A stretch of 35,647 nt of DNA from a virus. Shown here in pieces: positions 2,871-35,647 of this stretch (positions within the stretch are counted from its first letter, which is position 1; each line of letters opens with the position of its first letter). A model generated the notes under the pieces. That model saw nothing but the letters and a program-made list of their open reading frames with translations, had not been told where the DNA came from and ran no database searches. The position numbers and the translations under genes are program-made. The stretch lies in IMG/VR virus record IMGVR_UViG_3300048117_000190, positions 1-35,647 of that record; one strand, written 5' to 3'.

Positions 2871-3281
2871 ATGTCCACAAAAATTGGTTTGCAAGGAGAA
2901 CTTTTAGCTAGTTCTGTTTTGTTAAGCTATGGGATTGAAAACGACTTAGTTAGCAAAGACAAATATGATATTGTTGCATGGTTTGACCAAAAACCAATGA
3001 GGGTACAAGTTAAGGCAACAGCTAAATGTTATAATGAAAATGATGGTAAGTCTTTAAGATACAATTTTCAAACTGCCTATGGTAGCGATAAAAGACCTTA
3101 TAATGATAATGAAGTTGATTTTTTAATTTTAGTAGCCTTAGATATAAGAATTGCACAATTCATATTACCAATAAACAATAAAACAAAAAAAATATATGAA
3201 AAACAAATGACTATTGAAAATGAAAGAAACACCTTTAATATAATAAAAAATACATTATTTAATAAATGTTTATGTAGTTAG
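2871..3281 (+). CDS. PD-(D/E)XK family nuclease
   Basis: The 136-aa protein has the core of a small PD-(D/E)XK nuclease: GE at residues 9-10 in the first helix, YDIVAW with D33, and QVKAT with Q46 and K48. This fits the PDDEXK_5-type layout (GE...A...L, D..V, QVK). Such proteins cut or resolve DNA; a role as a Holliday-junction or packaging-associated nuclease, or in host DNA degradation, is inference. The C-terminal third (residues 75-136) has a beta strand DFLILVALD and a Lys-rich tail. It sits unusually among fibre and lysis genes rather than in the replication block. Confidence 0.7.
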   Translation: MSTKIGLQGELLASSVLLSYGIENDLVSKDKYDIVAWFDQKPMRVQVKATAKCYNENDGKSLRYNFQTAYGSDKRPYNDNEVDFLILVALDIRIAQFILPINNKTKKIYEKQMTIENERNTFNIIKNTLFNKCLCS

Positions 3282-3575: not shown

Positions 3576-3713
3576 ATGTCATTATATAGAAACATAAATA
3601 AAAGAAAAAAAGCTGGAACAAGTCGTACTAAGAAAAAATCAACTATATCTGCTAAATCTTATGCAAATATGAAAGCTGGTTTTCCAAAGAAAAAACGCAA
3701 AAAGAAAAAATGA
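3576..3713 (+). CDS. Very basic 45-aa protein
   Basis: This short ORF has GGAGA upstream of its ATG and overlaps the next gene by ATGA, so it is probably translated in the operon. About 40% of residues are Lys/Arg, ending in a run of PKKKRKKKK. It is likely a DNA- or RNA-binding peptide by charge. No family recognised. Confidence 0.6.
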   Translation: MSLYRNINKRKKAGTSRTKKKSTISAKSYANMKAGFPKKKRKKKK

Positions 3714-4162
3714 TTAGTTTATTGGGTTCTTTATTAGGGTTTGGTACAGGCTTTATGCCAAAAGTTTTAGATTTTTTTCAAGCAAAACAAAACATGAAAC
3801 ATGAATTATTGCTTCAAGAAAATAAAATAAAGATGGCAAAAGAATTGTCTGCTTTAAAAATTAAAGAAGAAACTGTTAAATCAATAACCGAACAAACAAA
3901 AGCTGTTTACCAACATGACCAGCAGCTTTCTAAAGCAAACCCATCAAAGTTTATTGCCGCTTTATCAGCAAGTGTTAGACCTGTCATTACATATTGTATG
4001 TTTATAGTTTTTTGTGTTGTGACTATTGCACAAGTAATTGTTGGAATACAAGAAGGTGACGAACCATTAAAGGCAATTCAAGCTGCATGGTCAGATGAAA
4101 GTATGGCGTTGTTTAGTTGCATAATTAGTTTTTGGTTTGCTAATAGGCTTGTAAACAAGTAA
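3710..4162 (+). CDS. Holin of the 3-TM family
   Basis: The 150-aa protein matches the 3-TM holin family seen in gene transfer agents and many alphaproteobacterial phages (GTA_holin_3TM type). A hydrophobic N-terminus (LLGSLLGFGTGFMPKVLDFF) is followed by a long charged helix (residues 25-75), then VRPVITYCMFIVFCVVTIAQ (about 90-111) and a C-terminal segment ALFSCIISFWFANRL. Holins form lesions in the inner membrane and time lysis. It overlaps the upstream gene by 4 nt (ATGA). No endolysin gene was found beside it. Confidence 0.88.
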   Translation: MISLLGSLLGFGTGFMPKVLDFFQAKQNMKHELLLQENKIKMAKELSALKIKEETVKSITEQTKAVYQHDQQLSKANPSKFIAALSASVRPVITYCMFIVFCVVTIAQVIVGIQEGDEPLKAIQAAWSDESMALFSCIISFWFANRLVNK

Positions 4163-4191: not shown

Positions 4192-4365
4192 ATGAATATA
4201 TTTACAAAATTATCAGTAGGCAGCTTTAGTGTTGGAATTACAATTTTATTGTCAGCATTTATATTAGTTGGTTGCAGTTCTTCAAGACTATTTTTGAACG
4301 CAGATGTTCCAAAAGGTCAAGATATAGAAATTACAATTACTACTGAAAAATCTGAAACAGATTAA
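4192..4365 (+). CDS. Small lipoprotein, candidate spanin component
   Basis: The 57-aa ORF has GAGGAAA before its ATG. It carries a signal sequence with a hydrophobic core (residues 13-26) and a lipobox LVGC with Cys28, giving a mature lipoprotein of about 30 residues ending in an acidic, Thr-rich tail. A tiny lipoprotein straight after a holin suggests an outer-membrane spanin-like (Rz1-like) part, but it lacks the Pro-rich stretch common in Rz1 and has no obvious inner-membrane partner. It is 3 nt from the next gene. Confidence 0.7.
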   Translation: MNIFTKLSVGSFSVGITILLSAFILVGCSSSRLFLNADVPKGQDIEITITTEKSETD

Positions 4366-4367
4366 AA

Positions 4368-4931
4368 ATGTCAACACCACAAGTAACGCACTTAAAAAAT
4401 GCGTTAAGTGATGACCAAATAAAACAAATACATTCTTTAATGAACAAGAAAAAAACATTAAATGGTGGTTTGTCCGGTGGTCAAAACAATGCTTATAGAA
4501 ATGTGCAAGTAAAATCATTTGGTGCAGATGATATTGATTTAAGTTTTGTTTCAGAAGTCATTAGTGATTTTGGTCAAACTGTAAATGAAAAATATTACAA
4601 TTTTGATATAAAAGGTTTTGCCGAGCCAATACAATTTTTGACTTATAATAAGGGTGGAAAGTATGACAACCACATGGACATTAATTGGTCAGACTTAAAT
4701 ACACATATTCCAAATAGAAAACTTACAATTATAACACAACTTAGTAACACAAAAGATTATTCCGGTGGTGACATAAAAGTGGAAGTTGATAAAGTTGATG
4801 ATTTTGTTATTCCTAGACAAAAAGGTGACATGATTTGTTTTCCTGCCTTTTTAATGCACAAAGTTTACCCTATTTTAAGTGGAACACGCCATAGCCTTGT
4901 TTCGTGGCTTTCAGGCAATAGTTGGAAATAA
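4368..4931 (+). CDS. 2-oxoglutarate/Fe(II)-dependent oxygenase (prolyl 4-hydroxylase-like)
   Basis: The 187-aa protein has the iron and co-substrate residues of 2OG-Fe(II) dioxygenases: H102-x-D104 (in DNHMDINW), H164 (FLMHKVYP) and R174 (GTRHSLVSW). GGDIKV (133-138) and KGDMICFPAF (152-161) are the usual strands between the motifs. The fold is that of prolyl-4-hydroxylase/PKHD enzymes, frequent in cyanophages and pelagiphages, which hydroxylate a protein or other substrate; the target here is unknown. It is the last gene of the plus-strand fibre/lysis run, so late expression is likely. Confidence 0.9.
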   Translation: MSTPQVTHLKNALSDDQIKQIHSLMNKKKTLNGGLSGGQNNAYRNVQVKSFGADDIDLSFVSEVISDFGQTVNEKYYNFDIKGFAEPIQFLTYNKGGKYDNHMDINWSDLNTHIPNRKLTIITQLSNTKDYSGGDIKVEVDKVDDFVIPRQKGDMICFPAFLMHKVYPILSGTRHSLVSWLSGNSWK

Positions 4932-7794: not shown

Positions 7795-7887
7795 ATGAGT
7801 AAGATTTTTTTAGAAAAGTATTTTTTTAGTGTTGTTTATATTGTTATATTGGCAACACAAATAGGTTGCGTTTATACAATTATATGA
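7795..7887 (+). CDS. 30-aa hydrophobic membrane peptide
   Basis: This short ORF lies between a good promoter and a strong terminator, preceded by AAGAGG. It encodes a single membrane-spanning segment (FFSVVYIVILATQIGCVYTII) after a short charged N-terminus. No family recognised. In size and hydropathy it resembles small phage membrane peptides or type I toxin-like peptides, but nothing specific identifies it. The last 8 nt overlap the end of the opposing ORF 7880-8029. Confidence 0.45.
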   Translation: MSKIFLEKYFFSVVYIVILATQIGCVYTII

Positions 7888-8029
7888 TTAATTCATCATC
7901 AATTTCATTTGTAATTTTTCGCCTTTTTCTTTGTGAACAAGCGGCAATACAAAGGTCTAATGAATACCATTCCCTACCATGTATAACATGACTAAACACA
8001 ATAATAAAAATAATCATAAATGTGTTCAT
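7880..8029 (-). CDS. 49-aa protein with N-terminal membrane anchor
   Basis: The ORF begins with a hydrophobic segment (residues 3-15, TFMIIFIIVFSHV), followed by a short soluble part with a basic cluster (QRKRRK) and an acidic tail. There is no clear Shine-Dalgarno sequence. It could be the last gene of the minus secreted operon, but 130 nt separate it from its neighbour and a plus-strand terminator lies between. Function unknown. Confidence 0.4.
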   Translation of the reverse strand: MNTFMIIFIIVFSHVIHGREWYSLDLCIAACSQRKRRKITNEIDDELII

Positions 8030-8045
8030 CAATAACAGTTTTAAT

Positions 8046-8090
8046 TCGTTCTCCAAACGAGATAACCCCTAAGTGATTAGGGGTTATTTT
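8046..8090 (+). terminator. Strong intrinsic terminator with preceding hairpin
   Basis: ATAACCCCTAA (8062-8072) and TTAGGGGTTAT (8077-8087) form a perfect 11-bp stem with a 4-nt loop, running into TTTT on the plus strand. A second hairpin, TCGTT/AACGA with a 5-nt loop (8046-8060), sits directly before it. The minus strand lacks a T tract here, so termination acts on the plus-strand transcript from about 7784. Confidence 0.7.
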
Positions 8091-8159: not shown

Positions 8160-8261
8160 TTAAAAACTTAGTTGAACCTGTATAGCAATAAACCCAACTA
8201 ACATTAATAATATTATTAAAAATGCTTTTAAACCATCTATGTCGTTATGTTCTTTTTTCAT
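8160..8261 (-). CDS. 33-aa membrane peptide
   Basis: The ORF starts within the stop of the upstream gene (ATGA), so it is probably coupled to it. After a charged start (KKEHNDIDG), residues 11-28 form a membrane helix (KAFLIILLMLVGFIAIQ). It is the last gene of the tightly coupled secreted/membrane operon. Function unknown. Confidence 0.55.
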   Translation of the reverse strand: MKKEHNDIDGLKAFLIILLMLVGFIAIQVQLSF

Positions 8262-8494
8262 TGTGCTAAAGGATTTTTGTTGTTGTCGGCAGCTTTTTCT
8301 AACTTGCCAACCTTTTCTTCTAAAATAGCTATTTGTGTTTCTAGTGGTGCTAAGTCAACACTTTCAAATTCTCTTGCTTCTATTTGGTCAACTCTTAACA
8401 TAAGCTGTCCATATCCATAAAAGCCTGAACCTATCCCACCAATAAGCCCAATAAGCATTACATAAGTTTGTGCCTTTTTTATTAAATCGTTCAT
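8258..8494 (-). CDS. 78-aa membrane-anchored coiled-coil protein
   Basis: One membrane segment near the N-terminus (residues 11-33, glycine-rich: VMLIGLIGGIGSGFYGYGQL) is followed by an acidic helix with heptad repeats (RVDQIEAREF... LETQIAILEEKVGKLEKA). The coiled coil would lie outside the inner membrane or in the cytoplasm, depending on topology. It overlaps the 618-aa gene by ATGA and has AGGAG upstream. The layout could suit an assembly partner or anchor for the secreted proteins of this operon; a spanin- or holin-like role is possible but not shown. Confidence 0.7.
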   Translation of the reverse strand: MNDLIKKAQTYVMLIGLIGGIGSGFYGYGQLMLRVDQIEAREFESVDLAPLETQIAILEEKVGKLEKAADNNKNPLAQ

Positions 8495-10347
8495 TCGTAT
8501 CTCCTATTTAATTGTTCTATTGTTGATTGACCACGCATTATATTATGTCTTGCGTTTGAAATGCCAATTAACGAACCCATAGCATTGTTGTTATCATATA
8601 AAATATTATTTGTATATATTTGGGTTGGTTGATAGAAATTTTGTCTATCCGGTAGCTTTATATAATATTGGTTAAAGTTAGGCACAAAACCCATAAGCCC
8701 TATAATGTCATCTTGTAAAGTTATTGAATATTCTCCTGTTTCATTTTGACTATTGATTTGTGCCTGTATTTCTTCTTTTTTATTTTCTATAAAATTTTGT
8801 TCTATTTGTTGTGCTTCACTAATAGACATGACTTGCGTTGTTAAAGTTTCAATTTGTGTTGTCAAATCTACGCTAGTTATCTCAACACTTGCTATTTGAG
8901 TTGCACCTAAACCTTGACCCATATCAATAGGTACAATGTTTATATTAGAAAGAATTGTATTTTGTTGTTGTGTTTCTTGTGTAGATTGATTGTTTATACC
9001 TGAACCATCAAAACTAACACTTGATGAAACAACTTGATTATTGGTTTGTTCTTGTTGGCTTGATGATGATACATTTTGATTTACAAATTCTACGCCTTGC
9101 CTATTAGTTTCTAATGATACTTCTATTGATTGATTATTGTTTTCTTCTTCTTCTTCATTTTCTTCAACAATTTCTATTTGTTCATTTTGTTCTTCTTCTT
9201 CAACCTCCTCAAGTTCTTCAATATCCTCCATTATTTCTTCTTCAAAAAATTCTTCTATAATTTCTAATTCAACAATATCTATGTTGTCACTTTCTATATC
9301 TATAATTGGTAATTCTGATATTGATGTAATTTCAAAACCTATATCTTCAAACTCTTCATCAATTAATAATATGTTTTCAATAGGCTCTATTAAAACATTA
9401 TTGTCTATAAATTCATCATTATCTTGGGGGGTGTCGAGAGTGTCGAGGTTTGTTATGAGGTCAACACTCTCTTGTTCATCAAAGTAATCATTTTCAACAC
9501 TTATTGTAAAGACATTGCCATAAATTAATTCATCTTGGTCAAACCCATAAATATCTGCATCATTATTTTCAATGCCATAAATGTTATCTAAAAAAGAATT
9601 TTCATTTAATACATCAACATTATTTGTATCTAAATCATAAATAGAACAATAAATACTTACATTGCTATTTTCTAAACAAGTTGAACTTAATGATGTAAAA
9701 CTTTCATCTACTTCTTCTTTTGTTGTAATAGCAAAACTTGTTCGTTCTAAAGATGTTTGGTTAGTGTCGTCATACCAAAGATATTCTACATAGTCAGTCA
9801 TGCTATATTGCAAACCAACACTAGCTGAATGTTGGTCTATGTTTACTTCTTCATATAAAAATTCTATTTCATTTGTTGTTTCATATAAAATTGCTTCAAA
9901 TGTACTTTTACGACCATTGGAATATTCACTTACATCATGCCACATAACAACAAAATATTGTGCCGCACCTTCACCTAATGTTTGATAGTAAGGTGATTGG
10001 TTACCGCTTGACCTTCTTATAAAATCTGAATGTAAGGGTTTAATACTTTGATTATATCCGGTAGATGGAAATTGCTCTGCAAGATAATTTCTACGCCTAG
10101 TAACATTTGAATTGAATGTATTAACACTATCAAAAGTCATAAACCCATTCATAGCTATTGATATGTTGTTATAAGTTTGGTCACCAAACATAAAATTAAA
10201 ACCTATTGGAACATTTGCCATGCCATCATCTTGTAAAGATAAACCTGTGCCACTTTGCGTTATGTCTATAATAGAATTATTTGATGTAATAAATTCGTTT
10301 GCATGAACTTCAAAAGAAAAAAATAGTAATAGAATTATTTTATACAT
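8491..10347 (-). CDS. Secreted NIDO-like, Glu-rich surface protein
   Basis: The 618-aa protein starts with a signal peptide (cleavage probably after VHA, residue 16). Residues 45-210 resemble the nidogen-like (NIDO) extracellular domain of bacterial surface proteins: IGFNFMFGDQTYNNISIAMN..., then YFVVMWHDV (131-139), TFEAILYE (149-156), IEFLYEE and ASVGLQ. C224 and C234 may form a disulphide. Residues 330-405 are extremely acidic (runs of Glu), and 420-465 are Ser/Gln/Asn-rich. The C-terminal 70 residues (MGFVPNFNQYYIKLPDRQNF and GISNARHNIM) look like a separate conserved module. It overlaps the 317-aa gene by 13 nt. Likely exported, acting in the periplasm or at the cell surface; function unknown. 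Confidence 0.8.
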   Translation of the reverse strand: MYKIILLLFFSFEVHANEFITSNNSIIDITQSGTGLSLQDDGMANVPIGFNFMFGDQTYNNISIAMNGFMTFDSVNTFNSNVTRRRNYLAEQFPSTGYNQSIKPLHSDFIRRSSGNQSPYYQTLGEGAAQYFVVMWHDVSEYSNGRKSTFEAILYETTNEIEFLYEEVNIDQHSASVGLQYSMTDYVEYLWYDDTNQTSLERTSFAITTKEEVDESFTSLSSTCLENSNVSIYCSIYDLDTNNVDVLNENSFLDNIYGIENNDADIYGFDQDELIYGNVFTISVENDYFDEQESVDLITNLDTLDTPQDNDEFIDNNVLIEPIENILLIDEEFEDIGFEITSISELPIIDIESDNIDIVELEIIEEFFEEEIMEDIEELEEVEEEEQNEQIEIVEENEEEEENNNQSIEVSLETNRQGVEFVNQNVSSSSQQEQTNNQVVSSSVSFDGSGINNQSTQETQQQNTILSNINIVPIDMGQGLGATQIASVEITSVDLTTQIETLTTQVMSISEAQQIEQNFIENKKEEIQAQINSQNETGEYSITLQDDIIGLMGFVPNFNQYYIKLPDRQNFYQPTQIYTNNILYDNNNAMGSLIGISNARHNIMRGQSTIEQLNRRYE

Positions 10348-11288
10348 AGTTTATGTTTTTTATATTTCTTACAAAAATTTGTCTTAGTGTAAGCCTTTAT
10401 TTCATAACCTTTTGTTTCATATTTATGTTTAATATCTTCATAGTCAGGTCTTTCTTTGGGATTATTTTCATAATAATTAATAGCATCAACACCAATTAAG
10501 CTTTTGCCATTAACCATGACCGGACAAGGTGTGCCGGCATTCATCATGCTAGAGAAAACATCTTTGTTACCCTTACACATTAATGATACTGCCGCCACTT
10601 TCATTCCCATATCATAAAGAGCCTTTGCATTTTTTAAAATAATACAATTTTTATCAACAATAGTTTTACCGGCACTAATACCAAATATTTGTGTTTGTAC
10701 TGCCGCACTTGCTCCGGTGGTACACAAGTCTTGTGAGTAACTTGACATTGCAGCATTTGGTGCAATAGCCGAAGCCGGAGGTGATTTAATAGTTTGTGTT
10801 GCCCTTTGCGTTGATGATGAAACTGATTGGTTAATATTTGTATTATTATTTACGCTTTTATTTTCAGAAAAATTTTGTGAAACATTTTTGTTTTCATTTA
10901 TATTTTTACTTGAAGATATGACATTGCTTTCTGAAACTTGATTAAGTTGTGATGTGCTAACATTATTTATATTTGATGTGTTCGTGACTACATTATTTAC
11001 ATTTTGATTTTGGGTAATATTAGATGTTATGTCTTGGGTTTGGGAAATAATAGAATTATTGGTTTGATTTATAGTGCTATCAGTCGTGGAATTTTGGGTA
11101 ATATTGCTTGTAGAATTATTTGTATTAGTTTGATTTATAACAGAAGAATTTGAAGATGATGATGAAATACTTTGAGTGGTATTATTAGTGATATTAGATG
11201 TCGTTGTTGTATCTTCTGCAAAAGCCAAAAACGATACACTAATAAGTGCAACAAATATAACTACTATTTCTTTTAATTTATAATTCAT
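10335..11288 (-). CDS. Secreted Asn/Ser/Thr-rich protein with C-terminal Cys domain
   Basis: A TTG at 11294 would extend this ORF, but the ATG at 11288 gives a normal signal peptide (hydrophobic residues 9-21, cleavage near AFA). Residues 28-165 are an almost pure Asn/Ser/Thr/Gln linker. The C-terminal 150 residues form a distinct domain starting SPPASAIAPNAAMSSYSQDL, with GMKVAAVSLMC and NAGTPCP, and six cysteines (189, 215, 238, 255, 306, 315) suited to disulphides. I recall similar C-terminal domains in other marine phages, without known function. First gene of the operon. There is no Shine-Dalgarno sequence, and TATTAT ends 9 nt before the ATG. Confidence 0.8.
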   Translation of the reverse strand: MNYKLKEIVVIFVALISVSFLAFAEDTTTTSNITNNTTQSISSSSSNSSVINQTNTNNSTSNITQNSTTDSTINQTNNSIISQTQDITSNITQNQNVNNVVTNTSNINNVSTSQLNQVSESNVISSSKNINENKNVSQNFSENKSVNNNTNINQSVSSSTQRATQTIKSPPASAIAPNAAMSSYSQDLCTTGASAAVQTQIFGISAGKTIVDKNCIILKNAKALYDMGMKVAAVSLMCKGNKDVFSSMMNAGTPCPVMVNGKSLIGVDAINYYENNPKERPDYEDIKHKYETKGYEIKAYTKTNFCKKYKKHKLCIK

Positions 11289-12645: not shown

Positions 12646-12897
12646 ATGCAAATATTATCATATTTAAAATCTATGGGTGAAACACCTTATAGTATTGCCA
12701 AGAAAGATAGATGGCGAGATTTAGGCACAGAAAGACAATGGTATAGATGGTGTAATGGTGAAAGCATACCAAGCCATAAAATAATGAAAATAATATTAGT
12801 TATGTCATCCGGTGCGGTTCAACCTAACGATTGGTTTGAAAACATTTGGAATGAAAACATTGTTACTATTTTGTCAAATGTGCATATAGATGACTAA
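12646..12897 (+). CDS. Cro/YdaS-like helix-turn-helix protein
   Basis: The 83-aa protein has an N-terminal helix (TPYSIAKKD) and a recognition-helix region RQWYRWCNGESIPSHKIMKI (31-50), followed by GAVQPNDWFENIW, much like the NG.SIPS...GAV...D..P tail of Cro/YdaS-type regulators. It probably binds an operator and regulates early or late phage promoters. TAAGGAG lies upstream, and it overlaps the next gene by 8 nt. As no integrase or CI-like repressor is seen, a lytic-cycle switch is more likely than lysogeny control. Confidence 0.65.
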   Translation: MQILSYLKSMGETPYSIAKKDRWRDLGTERQWYRWCNGESIPSHKIMKIILVMSSGAVQPNDWFENIWNENIVTILSNVHIDD

Positions 12898-13384
12898 AAA
12901 AACACACCTTTATGAGAATGATGAAGATAGAAATAATCAACAAAAGGTTATTGAATATGTCATGTATAAATGGAATTTTACCGCCCATGATATGCCGCTT
13001 GCTTATGAGTTTGATTTTGCTTGTATGAGAAATAAGAAAGTTGACGCAATGGTTGAGGTAAGATGCCGCAATATAGATGTCAACCAATTCGACACCATGA
13101 TTATGTCCAACAAAAAATATATGTGGGCTATACAAAATGGTGATGAAAGTCACATACCATTCTTATTTGTTGTGTGGTGGAAAAAATCTAAGACACTTGG
13201 CTATATTGATTTAAACAAAAGAAAAAAAGAATTAATTGACCCAATGAAAAATCCAAGAGGTTTGGTGCATAGACCGGAACTAGGATTACAACTAAAAGAT
13301 TACAGGAATGATTATCGAGATAGAGAAACATTAAGACATTTTAAGATAAAAGATTTTTGTATTATAACAAACAACTTTGGATAG
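12890..13384 (+). CDS. Putative PD-(D/E)XK-like nuclease
   Basis: The 164-aa protein has a weak PD-(D/E)XK pattern: YEFDFACMRNKKVDAMVEVR with D42 and E56-x-R58 in place of E-x-K, then a helix and the strand PFLFVVWWKK. The acidic pair fits a nuclease core, but Arg for Lys may mean an altered or inactive site. It lies directly before a DNA methyltransferase, so a repair or restriction-like nuclease is plausible. Its start overlaps the HTH gene by 8 nt. Confidence 0.45.
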   Translation: MTKKTHLYENDEDRNNQQKVIEYVMYKWNFTAHDMPLAYEFDFACMRNKKVDAMVEVRCRNIDVNQFDTMIMSNKKYMWAIQNGDESHIPFLFVVWWKKSKTLGYIDLNKRKKELIDPMKNPRGLVHRPELGLQLKDYRNDYRDRETLRHFKIKDFCIITNNFG

Positions 13385-13388
13385 AAAT

Positions 13389-14291
13389 ATGAATGTATTG
13401 AGTTTATTTGATGGAATGAGTTGTGGACAACTTGCATTGCATAGGGCCGGCATTAAATATGACAATTATTATGCTAGTGAAATAAAAAAATTTGCTATTG
13501 AATTAACAAAACATCATTATCCAAACACAATTCATGTAGGTGATGTTTGTAAGTTAAGTGCAAAAGATTTACCAAAGATAGATTTATTAATAGGTGGCAG
13601 CCCATGCCAAGATTTTTCAAATGCAAAAGTAAATGGAAAAGGTTTGGAAGGTGATAAATCAAGATTATTTTATGAATATTTAAGATTATTAAAAGATTGT
13701 AAGCCAAAATATTTTTTATTAGAAAATGTAAAAATGAAAAATAATAGCAAAAATCAATTAGATAATTATTTGGGTGTAGCAGGTGCTTTAATTAATTCTT
13801 CTTTAGTTAGTTATCAAACTAGGGCTAGATACTATTGGACTAATATTCCAAATGTTACTCAACCAAAAGATAAATTAATAAATTTTCAAGATTATAAAGA
13901 AACAAATAAAGATATATGTAAACAATATAAATTAAAAAAAACAAAATCAAGAATAGAAATGTGGAACAATGGTAATAAAGGAAACAATATAAAAAATTGT
14001 AAAAATATTACAAATTCAAAAAAGGTTGGCTGCCTTTTAAGGAAACAAGATAGAAGCCCAAATTCAGGTTTAATTGAGTTTGAAGATTTTTGTAGGTTTT
14101 TGACAAGAGAAGAACTTGAACAAGCACAAACTGTTCCTGTTGGTTACACTAAAACATTAAGTTTTAATCAAGCACAAGATGTTTTAGGTGATGGTTGGAC
14201 TATTGATGTAATTGCACACATATTTAAAAATATTAATAAAAAAGTAAATAAAGATATACATAAAGAATATTATCAGCAAATATTAATTTAG
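13389..14291 (+). CDS. DNA cytosine-C5 methyltransferase
   Basis: A TTG at 13377 is possible, but the ATG at 13389 gives the typical start MNVLSLFDGMSCG (motif I, SAM binding). Further motifs: GGSPCQDFS with catalytic Cys73 (IV), LLENVKM with E112 (VI), QTRARYYWTN (VIII), the target-recognition region (about 155-230), LTREELEQAQTVPVGYT (IX region) and LGDGWTIDVIAHIF (X). At 300 aa it is a complete small C5-MTase. It methylates cytosine at a specific site, probably shielding phage DNA from host restriction or altering host expression. The preceding gene may encode a nuclease, but no clear cognate restriction enzyme is present. Confidence 0.93.
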   Translation: MNVLSLFDGMSCGQLALHRAGIKYDNYYASEIKKFAIELTKHHYPNTIHVGDVCKLSAKDLPKIDLLIGGSPCQDFSNAKVNGKGLEGDKSRLFYEYLRLLKDCKPKYFLLENVKMKNNSKNQLDNYLGVAGALINSSLVSYQTRARYYWTNIPNVTQPKDKLINFQDYKETNKDICKQYKLKKTKSRIEMWNNGNKGNNIKNCKNITNSKKVGCLLRKQDRSPNSGLIEFEDFCRFLTREELEQAQTVPVGYTKTLSFNQAQDVLGDGWTIDVIAHIFKNINKKVNKDIHKEYYQQILI

Positions 14292-33786: not shown

Positions 33787-35647
33787 ATGAGCAAAACAAA
33801 CATTACCACATGGTCAGCAACAGCTTCATCTAATACTGATATAAACAGTATAGATATTAGTGAAGGTTGCTCACCAAGTAACATAAATAACGCAATGCGT
33901 GAAATAATGAAACAAGTTGCTGACATTAATTTAGGCACACAAGCATTATCAACAATAAAAATAGACAACCTTCATCTTGATGGAAATACCATTGTTACTT
34001 TAGATACTAATGGTGACCTAAACCTTACTCCTAATGGCACAGGGTCGGTTGTTATTGCTAAAGTTGACATTAATGGTGGAACAATAGACGGAACACCTAT
34101 TGGTGGTGCTAGTGCAAGCACAGGAGCTTTTACAACATTAGCCGCAAGTTCAACAGCAAATTTAGGTTCTTCTGTAACAATATCAGGTGGTAATATAGAT
34201 GGCGTTATAGGTGCAAATACTCCTGCGGCTATTACAGGCACAGTTATTACTGCTAGTACAAATTTTGCAGGCAATCTTACAGGCAATGTTACAGGAACAG
34301 TAGATGGTGTCGTAGGTGGTACAACTCCTGCAGCAGTTACAGGAACGACAATAACTGCCAATACTAAGTTTGTTGGTGCAATAGATGGTAATGTTACAGC
34401 AACAAGTGGTACATCAACATTTAATAATGTGACTATAAATGGCACACTTGATATGGACAGTACAACATCTCAAACAATTACAGGACTTGCCACGCCCTCT
34501 GGTTCTACAGATGCAGCTACAAAAGGCTATGTTGACACCGAAGTATCAGGATTAGTTGACTCCGCACCTGCAGCATTAAACACATTAAATGAATTAGCCG
34601 CAGCATTAGGTGATGACGCTAGTTTCTCAACTACAATTACAAATTCAATAGCCGCTAAATTACCACTTGCAGGTGGTACTATGACAGGCGATATAGACGC
34701 TAATTCCAATACTGTTAGTGGATTAAAAGCTCCATCAAGTGCAAATGACGCTACAACAAAAACTTATGTAGATACTGCAGACGCACTAAAACTTAATTTA
34801 AGTGGTGGTACATTGTCTGGCAACCTTGCTATGGGTGATAACAAAGTTACAGGTCTTGCTGCACCAACCGCAGATAATGACGCTGCTAGAAAAAAATATG
34901 TAGATGATATAGCAGGTTCAGGTACTGCTGCCGCAACATCAGCTTCGGCTGCCGCAACTTCTGCAACTGCATCAGCAACTTCTGCTACCGCTAGTGCAAG
35001 TTCTGCTACGGCTTCGGCTGCAAGTGCTACTTCTGCCGCTTCATCATTAGATAGTTTTACAGATATATATTTGGGTCAAAAGTCATCAGCACCTACTGTT
35101 GACAATGATGGTGACGCTTTAGTAACAGGTGCTTTATATTGGAATACATCAAGCAATGATTTATATGTATGGAATGGTTCTGCATGGGAGCAAGGTGCAT
35201 TTAGTACAGGTGGTGTATTATCAAATGTTGTAGAAGATACAACTCCACAATTAGGTGGTGATTTAGACGCACAAGGAAAAGATATTGAAGATGTTGGTAT
35301 TGTATCAGCAGATGGTATTGCAGGTATTTATGGAGCAACAGGCTCACCAGTAACATATACTGTAACAGTAGCATCAAAAACTGCAGCACACCCTTATAAT
35401 GGTGATGGTAGTTCTAGTGCATATTTCTTAAATGGTATTGAAAGCCCTGCATTACAATTACAAGGTGTTGATGGTACAACTGCAAACACAGAATATTTTT
35501 ACAAGTTTGACCAAGCACATAGTTCTAATAGTGGACACCCACTAAGATTTTATAAAGACGCTGCAAAAGCTGAGGCTTACACATCAGGCGTAACAACAAA
35601 TGGTACTGCAGGTAGTTCAGGTGCATTTACAACGATTGCGGTTGATG
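33787..35647 (+). CDS. Tail fibre protein, N-terminal part (runs off window)
   Basis: AGGAGTAAAAA precedes the ATG. At least 620 residues are present with no stop. The first 50 carry EGCSPSNINNAMREIMKQ, the usual virion-attachment start of marine phage fibres. About 60-225 is beta-repeat with ANTPAAITGT-type units. Three copies of TGLxxPxxxxDAATKxYVD follow (about 230-375), then an Ala/Ser/Thr coiled stretch (about 376-420) and the module LYWNTSSNDLYVWNGSAW. It binds the tail and displays the receptor-binding end; the distal part is probably the fragment at the window start. Confidence 0.9.
   Translation, partial: MSKTNITTWSATASSNTDINSIDISEGCSPSNINNAMREIMKQVADINLGTQALSTIKIDNLHLDGNTIVTLDTNGDLNLTPNGTGSVVIAKVDINGGTIDGTPIGGASASTGAFTTLAASSTANLGSSVTISGGNIDGVIGANTPAAITGTVITASTNFAGNLTGNVTGTVDGVVGGTTPAAVTGTTITANTKFVGAIDGNVTATSGTSTFNNVTINGTLDMDSTTSQTITGLATPSGSTDAATKGYVDTEVSGLVDSAPAALNTLNELAAALGDDASFSTTITNSIAAKLPLAGGTMTGDIDANSNTVSGLKAPSSANDATTKTYVDTADALKLNLSGGTLSGNLAMGDNKVTGLAAPTADNDAARKKYVDDIAGSGTAAATSASAAATSATASATSATASASSATASAASATSAASSLDSFTDIYLGQKSSAPTVDNDGDALVTGALYWNTSSNDLYVWNGSAWEQGAFSTGGVLSNVVEDTTPQLGGDLDAQGKDIEDVGIVSADGIAGIYGATGSPVTYTVTVASKTAAHPYNGDGSSSAYFLNGIESPALQLQGVDGTTANTEYFYKFDQAHSSNSGHPLRFYKDAAKAEAYTSGVTTNGTAGSSGAFTTIAVD

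Follow-up and report, generated by a model that had tools for sequence, protein, structure and literature searches.

The genes P1, P2, and P3 form an obligately linked phage module with a fixed order and a conserved core, to which P4 is a clade-specific addition, and, judging from their sequences, the three core products probably constitute one exported, inner-membrane-anchored complex that spans the periplasm. The window, i.e. the whole analysed stretch of 35,647 nucleotides, is a linear IMG/VR record of an SU10-like podovirus with strong matches to the SU10 portal, capsid, and adaptor families. Among annotated phage records, Phage C72C1 is its nearest capsid relative, and HTVC106P and Methylophilales phage Venkman are among the more distant ones. 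The record begins and ends inside tail-fibre-like genes (1-2161 and 33787-35647), which suggests that a nearly complete genome was interrupted in a repetitive fibre region. Further genes of the window comprise, first, a 2OG-Fe(II) oxygenase gene (4368-4931, +), then a DNA methyltransferase gene (13389-14291, +) and two PD-(D/E)XK nuclease-like genes (2871-3281, + and 12890-13384, +).

The cassette occupies the minus strand. P1 (10335-11288, -; ATG start) encodes an exported protein of 317 aa composed of a signal peptide, an Asn/Ser/Thr-rich stalk, and a C-terminal four-cysteine domain; P2 (8491-10347, -) encodes an exported protein of 618 aa, in which a signal peptide is followed by a beta-sandwich head, an acidic linker, and a conserved tail; P3 (8258-8494, -) specifies a single-pass membrane protein of 78 aa, and P4 (8160-8261, -) a single-pass membrane peptide of 33 aa. 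Four overlapping minus-strand genes had been proposed in the initial annotation, and their coordinates as well as the overlaps of 13 nt (P1/P2), 4 nt (P2/P3), and 4 nt (P3/P4) were verified. Its statement that the block lies away from replication genes has to be corrected, as an exonuclease VIII-like gene and then an SSB gene adjoin it 3' on the same strand. P1 to P4 are real genes, since comparison with relatives yielded pN below pS for all four alike, i.e. purifying selection, and the exact 13-nt P1/P2 overlap is kept in relatives whose P2 identity is just 33-53%. At the DNA level, a search with the whole cassette gave no match among phage records, and scans for promoters and terminators returned results at chance level.

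Linkage of the core genes emerged from independent seeds. In IMG/VR scans that each covered the best 80 of several hundred matches, and are hence biased toward close relatives, wherever the contig left room, the P2-tail seed had P1 on its upstream side in 39/39 loci and P3 on its downstream side in 64/64, and the P3 seed was accompanied by P2 in 53/53 and by P1 in 27/27. The first P3 profile had been built from cassette-context genes picked by their NPL ending, yet the linkage reappears in the scan seeded with P3. With P1 as seed, all 132 loci among the matches listed had a P3-like gene within 4.7 kb and 104 of them matched the P2 tail profile; about half of the others were inspected, and there a P2-like exported protein occupies the same place. 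Conversely, the P3 profile matched 283 times inside cassettes and six times elsewhere among the matches listed, five of the six lying near the start of a locus. The P1-domain profile matched more than 592 IMG/VR stretches, and dereplication at 85% P1-domain identity left at least 60 distinct cassettes. Thus, the claim that these genes act as one functional unit is strongly supported by co-occurrence from the independent P2 and P3 seeds, and the possibility, also raised in the initial annotation, that homologues occur scattered singly was checked with the opposite result, as they are nearly always found together. Of the proposed four-gene make-up, the P1-P2-P3 core holds, whereas P4 does not extend beyond its clade.

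The module is spread over several phage lineages, as it is carried by pelagiphages, roseophages, one T7-like, and one T4-like marine phage. A tblastn search with P1 matched 11 phage records (six pelagiphages, two roseophages, and three environmental ones); in those examined closely, a P2-like and then a P3-like gene follow P1, with the exception of MW202481, which had no clear P3 by eye. In this record (L004; 5908-6266 and 6236-7342), P1 is unannotated and its match covers two small opposite-strand ORFs and part of a 'transport protein tonB', the latter being the P2-like gene. The cassette is optional, as two phages with related capsids, C72C1 and HTVC106P, gave no P1 match. Among bacteria and archaea, P1 was detected in just 24 contigs across 85,000 species, nearly all of them from metagenome-assembled or single-cell genomes, a rarity consistent with a phage module.

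Both large proteins carry signal peptides with AxA-type cleavage sites and have no lipobox, as read from their sequences. That of P1 (11217-11288, -) spans approximately residues 1-24, with a hydrophobic segment at residues 5-23 and cleavage between SFLAFA and EDTT. It is followed by a low-complexity stalk (10794-11213, -; residues 26-165; 64% N/S/T), which is predicted to be disordered and varies greatly in length among homologues, and by a conserved domain of about 110 residues (10434-10775, -; residues ~172-285) with four invariant cysteines at positions 189, 215, 238, and 255. PHROGs assigned P1 only to a family without assigned function and returned nothing convincing for P2, Pfam searches of P1, P2, P3, P4, and the P2 family gave no convincing match, and Foldseek with P1 retrieved solely unnamed phage proteins.

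P2 consists of three parts with different conservation. Its head (9775-10296, -; residues 18-191) is a beta-sandwich modelled by AlphaFold2 with pLDDT values of mostly 80-93, and the P2 profile aligned with residues 1-175 of PDB 8gl6 chain D, a gliding-adhesin homologue named 'RemA' (E 2.7e-13). The linker (8824-9774, -; residues 192-508, ~317 residues) is predicted to be disordered and is composed of 25% Asp/Glu and 1% Lys/Arg, and the C-terminal module (8494-8823, -; residues 509-618) is conserved, with the motif F-x-x-Y...F/W-Y...I-Y...D-N. Unrelated beta domains, RemA-like and carbohydrate-binding-like, replace one another as heads: in several pelagiphages, the head is replaced by a different domain annotated 'carbohydrate binding', while the layout of linker and tail is retained. 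The AlphaFold2 models had a mean pLDDT of 47 and were uninformative on contacts. Foldseek with P2 found nothing significant in the PDB, and among viral models it matched proteins of uncultured phages and of Synechococcus phage S-SRM01, which offered no useful function. A NIDO domain (PF06119), initially read from the sequence of the head, was discarded, as 0/20 records exceeded the cut-off and P2 had no Pfam match.

P3 combines one membrane segment with a coiled coil, and close to its C-terminus Asn-Pro-Leu is invariant. Its charge bias indicated an N-in orientation in 22/37 proteins and N-out in 7/37, with ties in 8/37, and the P3 of the window is predicted to be N-in/C-out. Its membrane segment is only weakly hydrophobic, with a Kyte-Doolittle maximum of 1.18 at residue 11, under the usual cut (relatives, 1.2-2.3), which counts against a function as anchor; that of P4 is clear (2.58). 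P4 and the conserved 58-aa ORF (7880-8056, -; TTG start, one hydrophobic segment, Cys pair) occur only in close relatives, where the latter directly follows P4; its membership in the unit is uncertain. Recombination occurs within the cassette and P3 is swapped independently of P1 and P2, as is evident from locus L019, which shares 88% identity with the window in P2 but only 48% in P3, and from L014 with the reverse pattern (53% and 97%). Furthermore, in some loci a small membrane protein (phrog_10198) is inserted between P2 and P3, and in L071, L073, L067, and L088 three extra small proteins, exported where read, occupy this position. A by-eye reading of the extra secreted proteins of L071 and L073 as pilin and chaperone was unsupported by profiles.

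The envelope location suggested in the initial annotation follows from the two signal peptides and the membrane anchor. As neither exported protein bears an outer-membrane targeting signal and their partner would be an inner-membrane anchor, we consider it very probable that the complex resides in the periplasm, where the P2 tail and the NPL end of P3 would suit conserved docking and the swapped heads would suit variable targets in the outer envelope. P3 may be inserted N-in/C-out in the inner membrane and, by its coiled coil and NPL end, could hold the conserved tail of P2, P1, or both. From there, the acidic linker of P2, 300 residues in length, might reach through the peptidoglycan, so that the variable head would bind either a glycan or a protein in the cell wall or outer membrane, and a disulphide-stabilised P1 might stand alongside. 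Such a complex could assist at the lysis stage by weakening or tethering the outer layers, or by timing their failure, thereby acting like a spanin without being one.

A role in the envelope at the lysis stage is our leading reading, although it is a committed guess and unproven. It is favoured because lysis genes recur near the cassette, and the neighbourhood thus points first to a function that was absent from the four suggested in the initial annotation. A lysis gene was located within 1.5 kb in 10 of 42 dereplicated loci, every one of them co-directional, where roughly 7% would be expected by our own estimate of one lysis locus in a 45-kb genome; the lysis neighbourhood is hence an enrichment over this rough figure, not a rule. 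For instance, the P1-P2-P3 cassette of L054 and L095 is followed by a small gene (which encodes a lipoprotein in L095), then by the gene of an Rz-like spanin (phrog_739, E 1e-7 to 1e-11), and finally by that of a GH24 endolysin (PF00959, E 8e-50). An M15 endolysin directly follows P3 in HTVC023P, an amidase lies ~0.9 kb upstream of P1 in HTVC033P, a holin of the GTA_holin_3TM type directly precedes P1 in Mosig, and in MW202481 a holin-like gene and an endolysin are located just downstream of the cassette. In T7, the lysis genes sit between tail genes and terminase, which is also where the cassette is placed in AP013540.

Several observations argue against this role. Most dereplicated loci (32/42) have no lysis gene recognised within 1.5 kb by the few profiles used, and in several phages a canonical spanin and endolysin lie beside the cassette, which therefore is not the sole spanin there. 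In the window, the cassette is ~4 kb from, and convergent with, a holin-like gene on the opposite strand (3710-4162, +; phrog_6637), whose relative in Mosig passes the GTA_holin_3TM cut-off. This gene is followed by a 57-aa lipoprotein-like gene (4192-4365, +), and no endolysin was recognised among the window ORFs scanned. Furthermore, the exonuclease and SSB genes following the window cassette would suggest early or middle expression. Published transcriptome work on pelagiphages used HTVC022P and HTVC027P (PMC12753301), both of which are absent from the P1 tblastn matches, so that it provides no timing for the cassette.

This position among DNA-metabolism genes, being compatible with early expression, would also fit superinfection exclusion or receptor masking, in which the P2 head, held by P3, would bind the phage's own receptor or a surface glycan from the periplasmic side and thereby block entry by relatives or keep released progeny off debris. 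We regard this as rather unlikely, though it is the strongest competitor to a lysis-stage role. Heads swapped between unrelated beta domains are as expected when host surface structures are tracked, and the optional occurrence of the cassette in phages with related capsids is likewise in keeping with exclusion. However, the unit has neither lipobox nor barrel to target it to the outer membrane, exclusion does not predict the recurrent lysis neighbourhood, and the exclusion systems known to us use far less than two large exported proteins.

The similarity of the P2 head to the N-terminus of a gliding-adhesin homologue and the long N/S/T-rich stalk of P1 would instead be explained by surface adhesion, with stalk and head displayed outside so that infected cells or debris stick to neighbours, a 'sibling capture' rationale already proposed for the phage-borne curli of pelagiphages (PMC9599517). 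This appears doubtful and clearly less probable than exclusion, as no route across the outer membrane is encoded (CsgG in 0/20 records, no lipobox) and P3 anchors at the inner membrane. A virion component such as a head or tail decoration would account for cassettes placed directly after large late genes (L235, L256) or before the terminase gene (HTVC202P, Baldr, and S28C10), but it is highly improbable, since two signal peptides and a membrane anchor are unexpected for virions assembled in the cytoplasm, no convincing structural-family match was obtained, and phages with related capsids do without a P1 match. Least probable of all is nutrient or ion capture at the envelope by the acidic linker and a substrate-binding head, as apart from the acidity of P2 no transporter, binding-protein, or enzyme family was matched and no partner transporter gene is present.

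The unit stays intact across unrelated phage lineages despite its head swaps and must therefore have a specific task at the host envelope. Pelagiphages rank among the most abundant marine phages, and to our knowledge, hardly any work has addressed how they get through or remodel the envelopes of SAR11 and comparable hosts. With HTVC023P, HTVC033P, HTVC202P, HTVC115P, Mosig, Baldr, CRP-207, and CRP-810, cultured carriers are at hand in which the function is testable now. The cassette also exposes likely misannotations: in two roseophages, the products labelled 'putative lysozyme' (CRP-207 gp73, L005) and 'lysozyme' (CRP-810 gp51, L006) have the membrane segment, coiled coil, and NPL end of P3, and these labels are probably wrong. 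Whether the module represents a hitherto overlooked class of envelope machine that is widespread among the phages of the ocean is in our judgement evenly balanced. Such a machine would combine an inner-membrane anchor, a linker protein that crosses the periplasm and has exchangeable ligand-binding heads, and a cysteine-containing stalk protein; podoviral, T7-like, and T4-like phages would inherit it as one unit, and its target would be the outer envelope of infected cells.

The closest known systems include two-component spanins (lambda Rz/Rz1; phrog_739). P3 has the i-spanin layout of a small N-in protein with an N-terminal membrane segment and a periplasmic coiled coil, the proposed bridge likewise extends from inner to outer membrane and often lies beside endolysin and holin genes, and P3 proteins showed weak similarity to Rz-like spanin profiles in 12/24 members (best E 6.8e-5). 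In contrast to spanins, the cassette has two large exported proteins and no outer-membrane lipoprotein partner, as P1, P2, and P4 are without lipobox; in L095, the lipoprotein-like gene is a separate one, partnered with the equally separate Rz-like gene. P3 as the spanin of its phage was rejected, as distinct Rz-like spanin genes lie downstream of it in L054, L085, and L095; should P1-P2-P3 nonetheless prove to be a spanin relative, its novelty would shrink. The Mu releasin gp25 (DUF2730, PF10805) is likewise small, is encoded near lysis genes, and has an N-terminal membrane segment of weak hydrophobicity (PMC9239132), and the P3 of AP013540 is annotated DUF2730. However, P3 is predicted from charge to be N-in/C-out, opposite to the N-out/C-in releasins, and the DUF2730 assignment, taken from one public annotation, was dropped, as 0/20 records reached the curated PF10805 cut-off.

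The RemA/RemZ gliding adhesins of Flavobacterium (8gl6 chain D) share with P2 an N-terminal region of 175 residues homologous to its head, but no other part of the chain aligned convincingly; the alignment stops at residue 175, and the P2 tail is a conserved module of its own rather than a type IX secretion C-terminal domain. The curli or type VIII secretion system of pelagiphages (PMC9599517) likewise includes an Asn-rich protein of marine phage origin that is exported, yet the cassette has other gene content, P1 has no curlin match, and CsgG was found in 0/20 records with positive controls. Also close are HTVC033P gp45 and BAQ94057 of AP013540, both annotated 'putative carbohydrate binding domain', which are P2 homologues in the same gene order that differ from the window P2 in the head domain and share the layout of linker and tail. 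Thus, spanins, DUF2730 releasins, NIDO proteins, curli, and type IX adhesins each depart from the module in at least one defining feature. No published description of the P1-P2-P3 set was found in a literature search whose coverage excluded most subscription journals, and the initial impression that no known system has this make-up was borne out by every profile library and literature search made. As the unit is coherent and widespread and matches none of the families tested, we regard P1-P2-P3 as new in kind.
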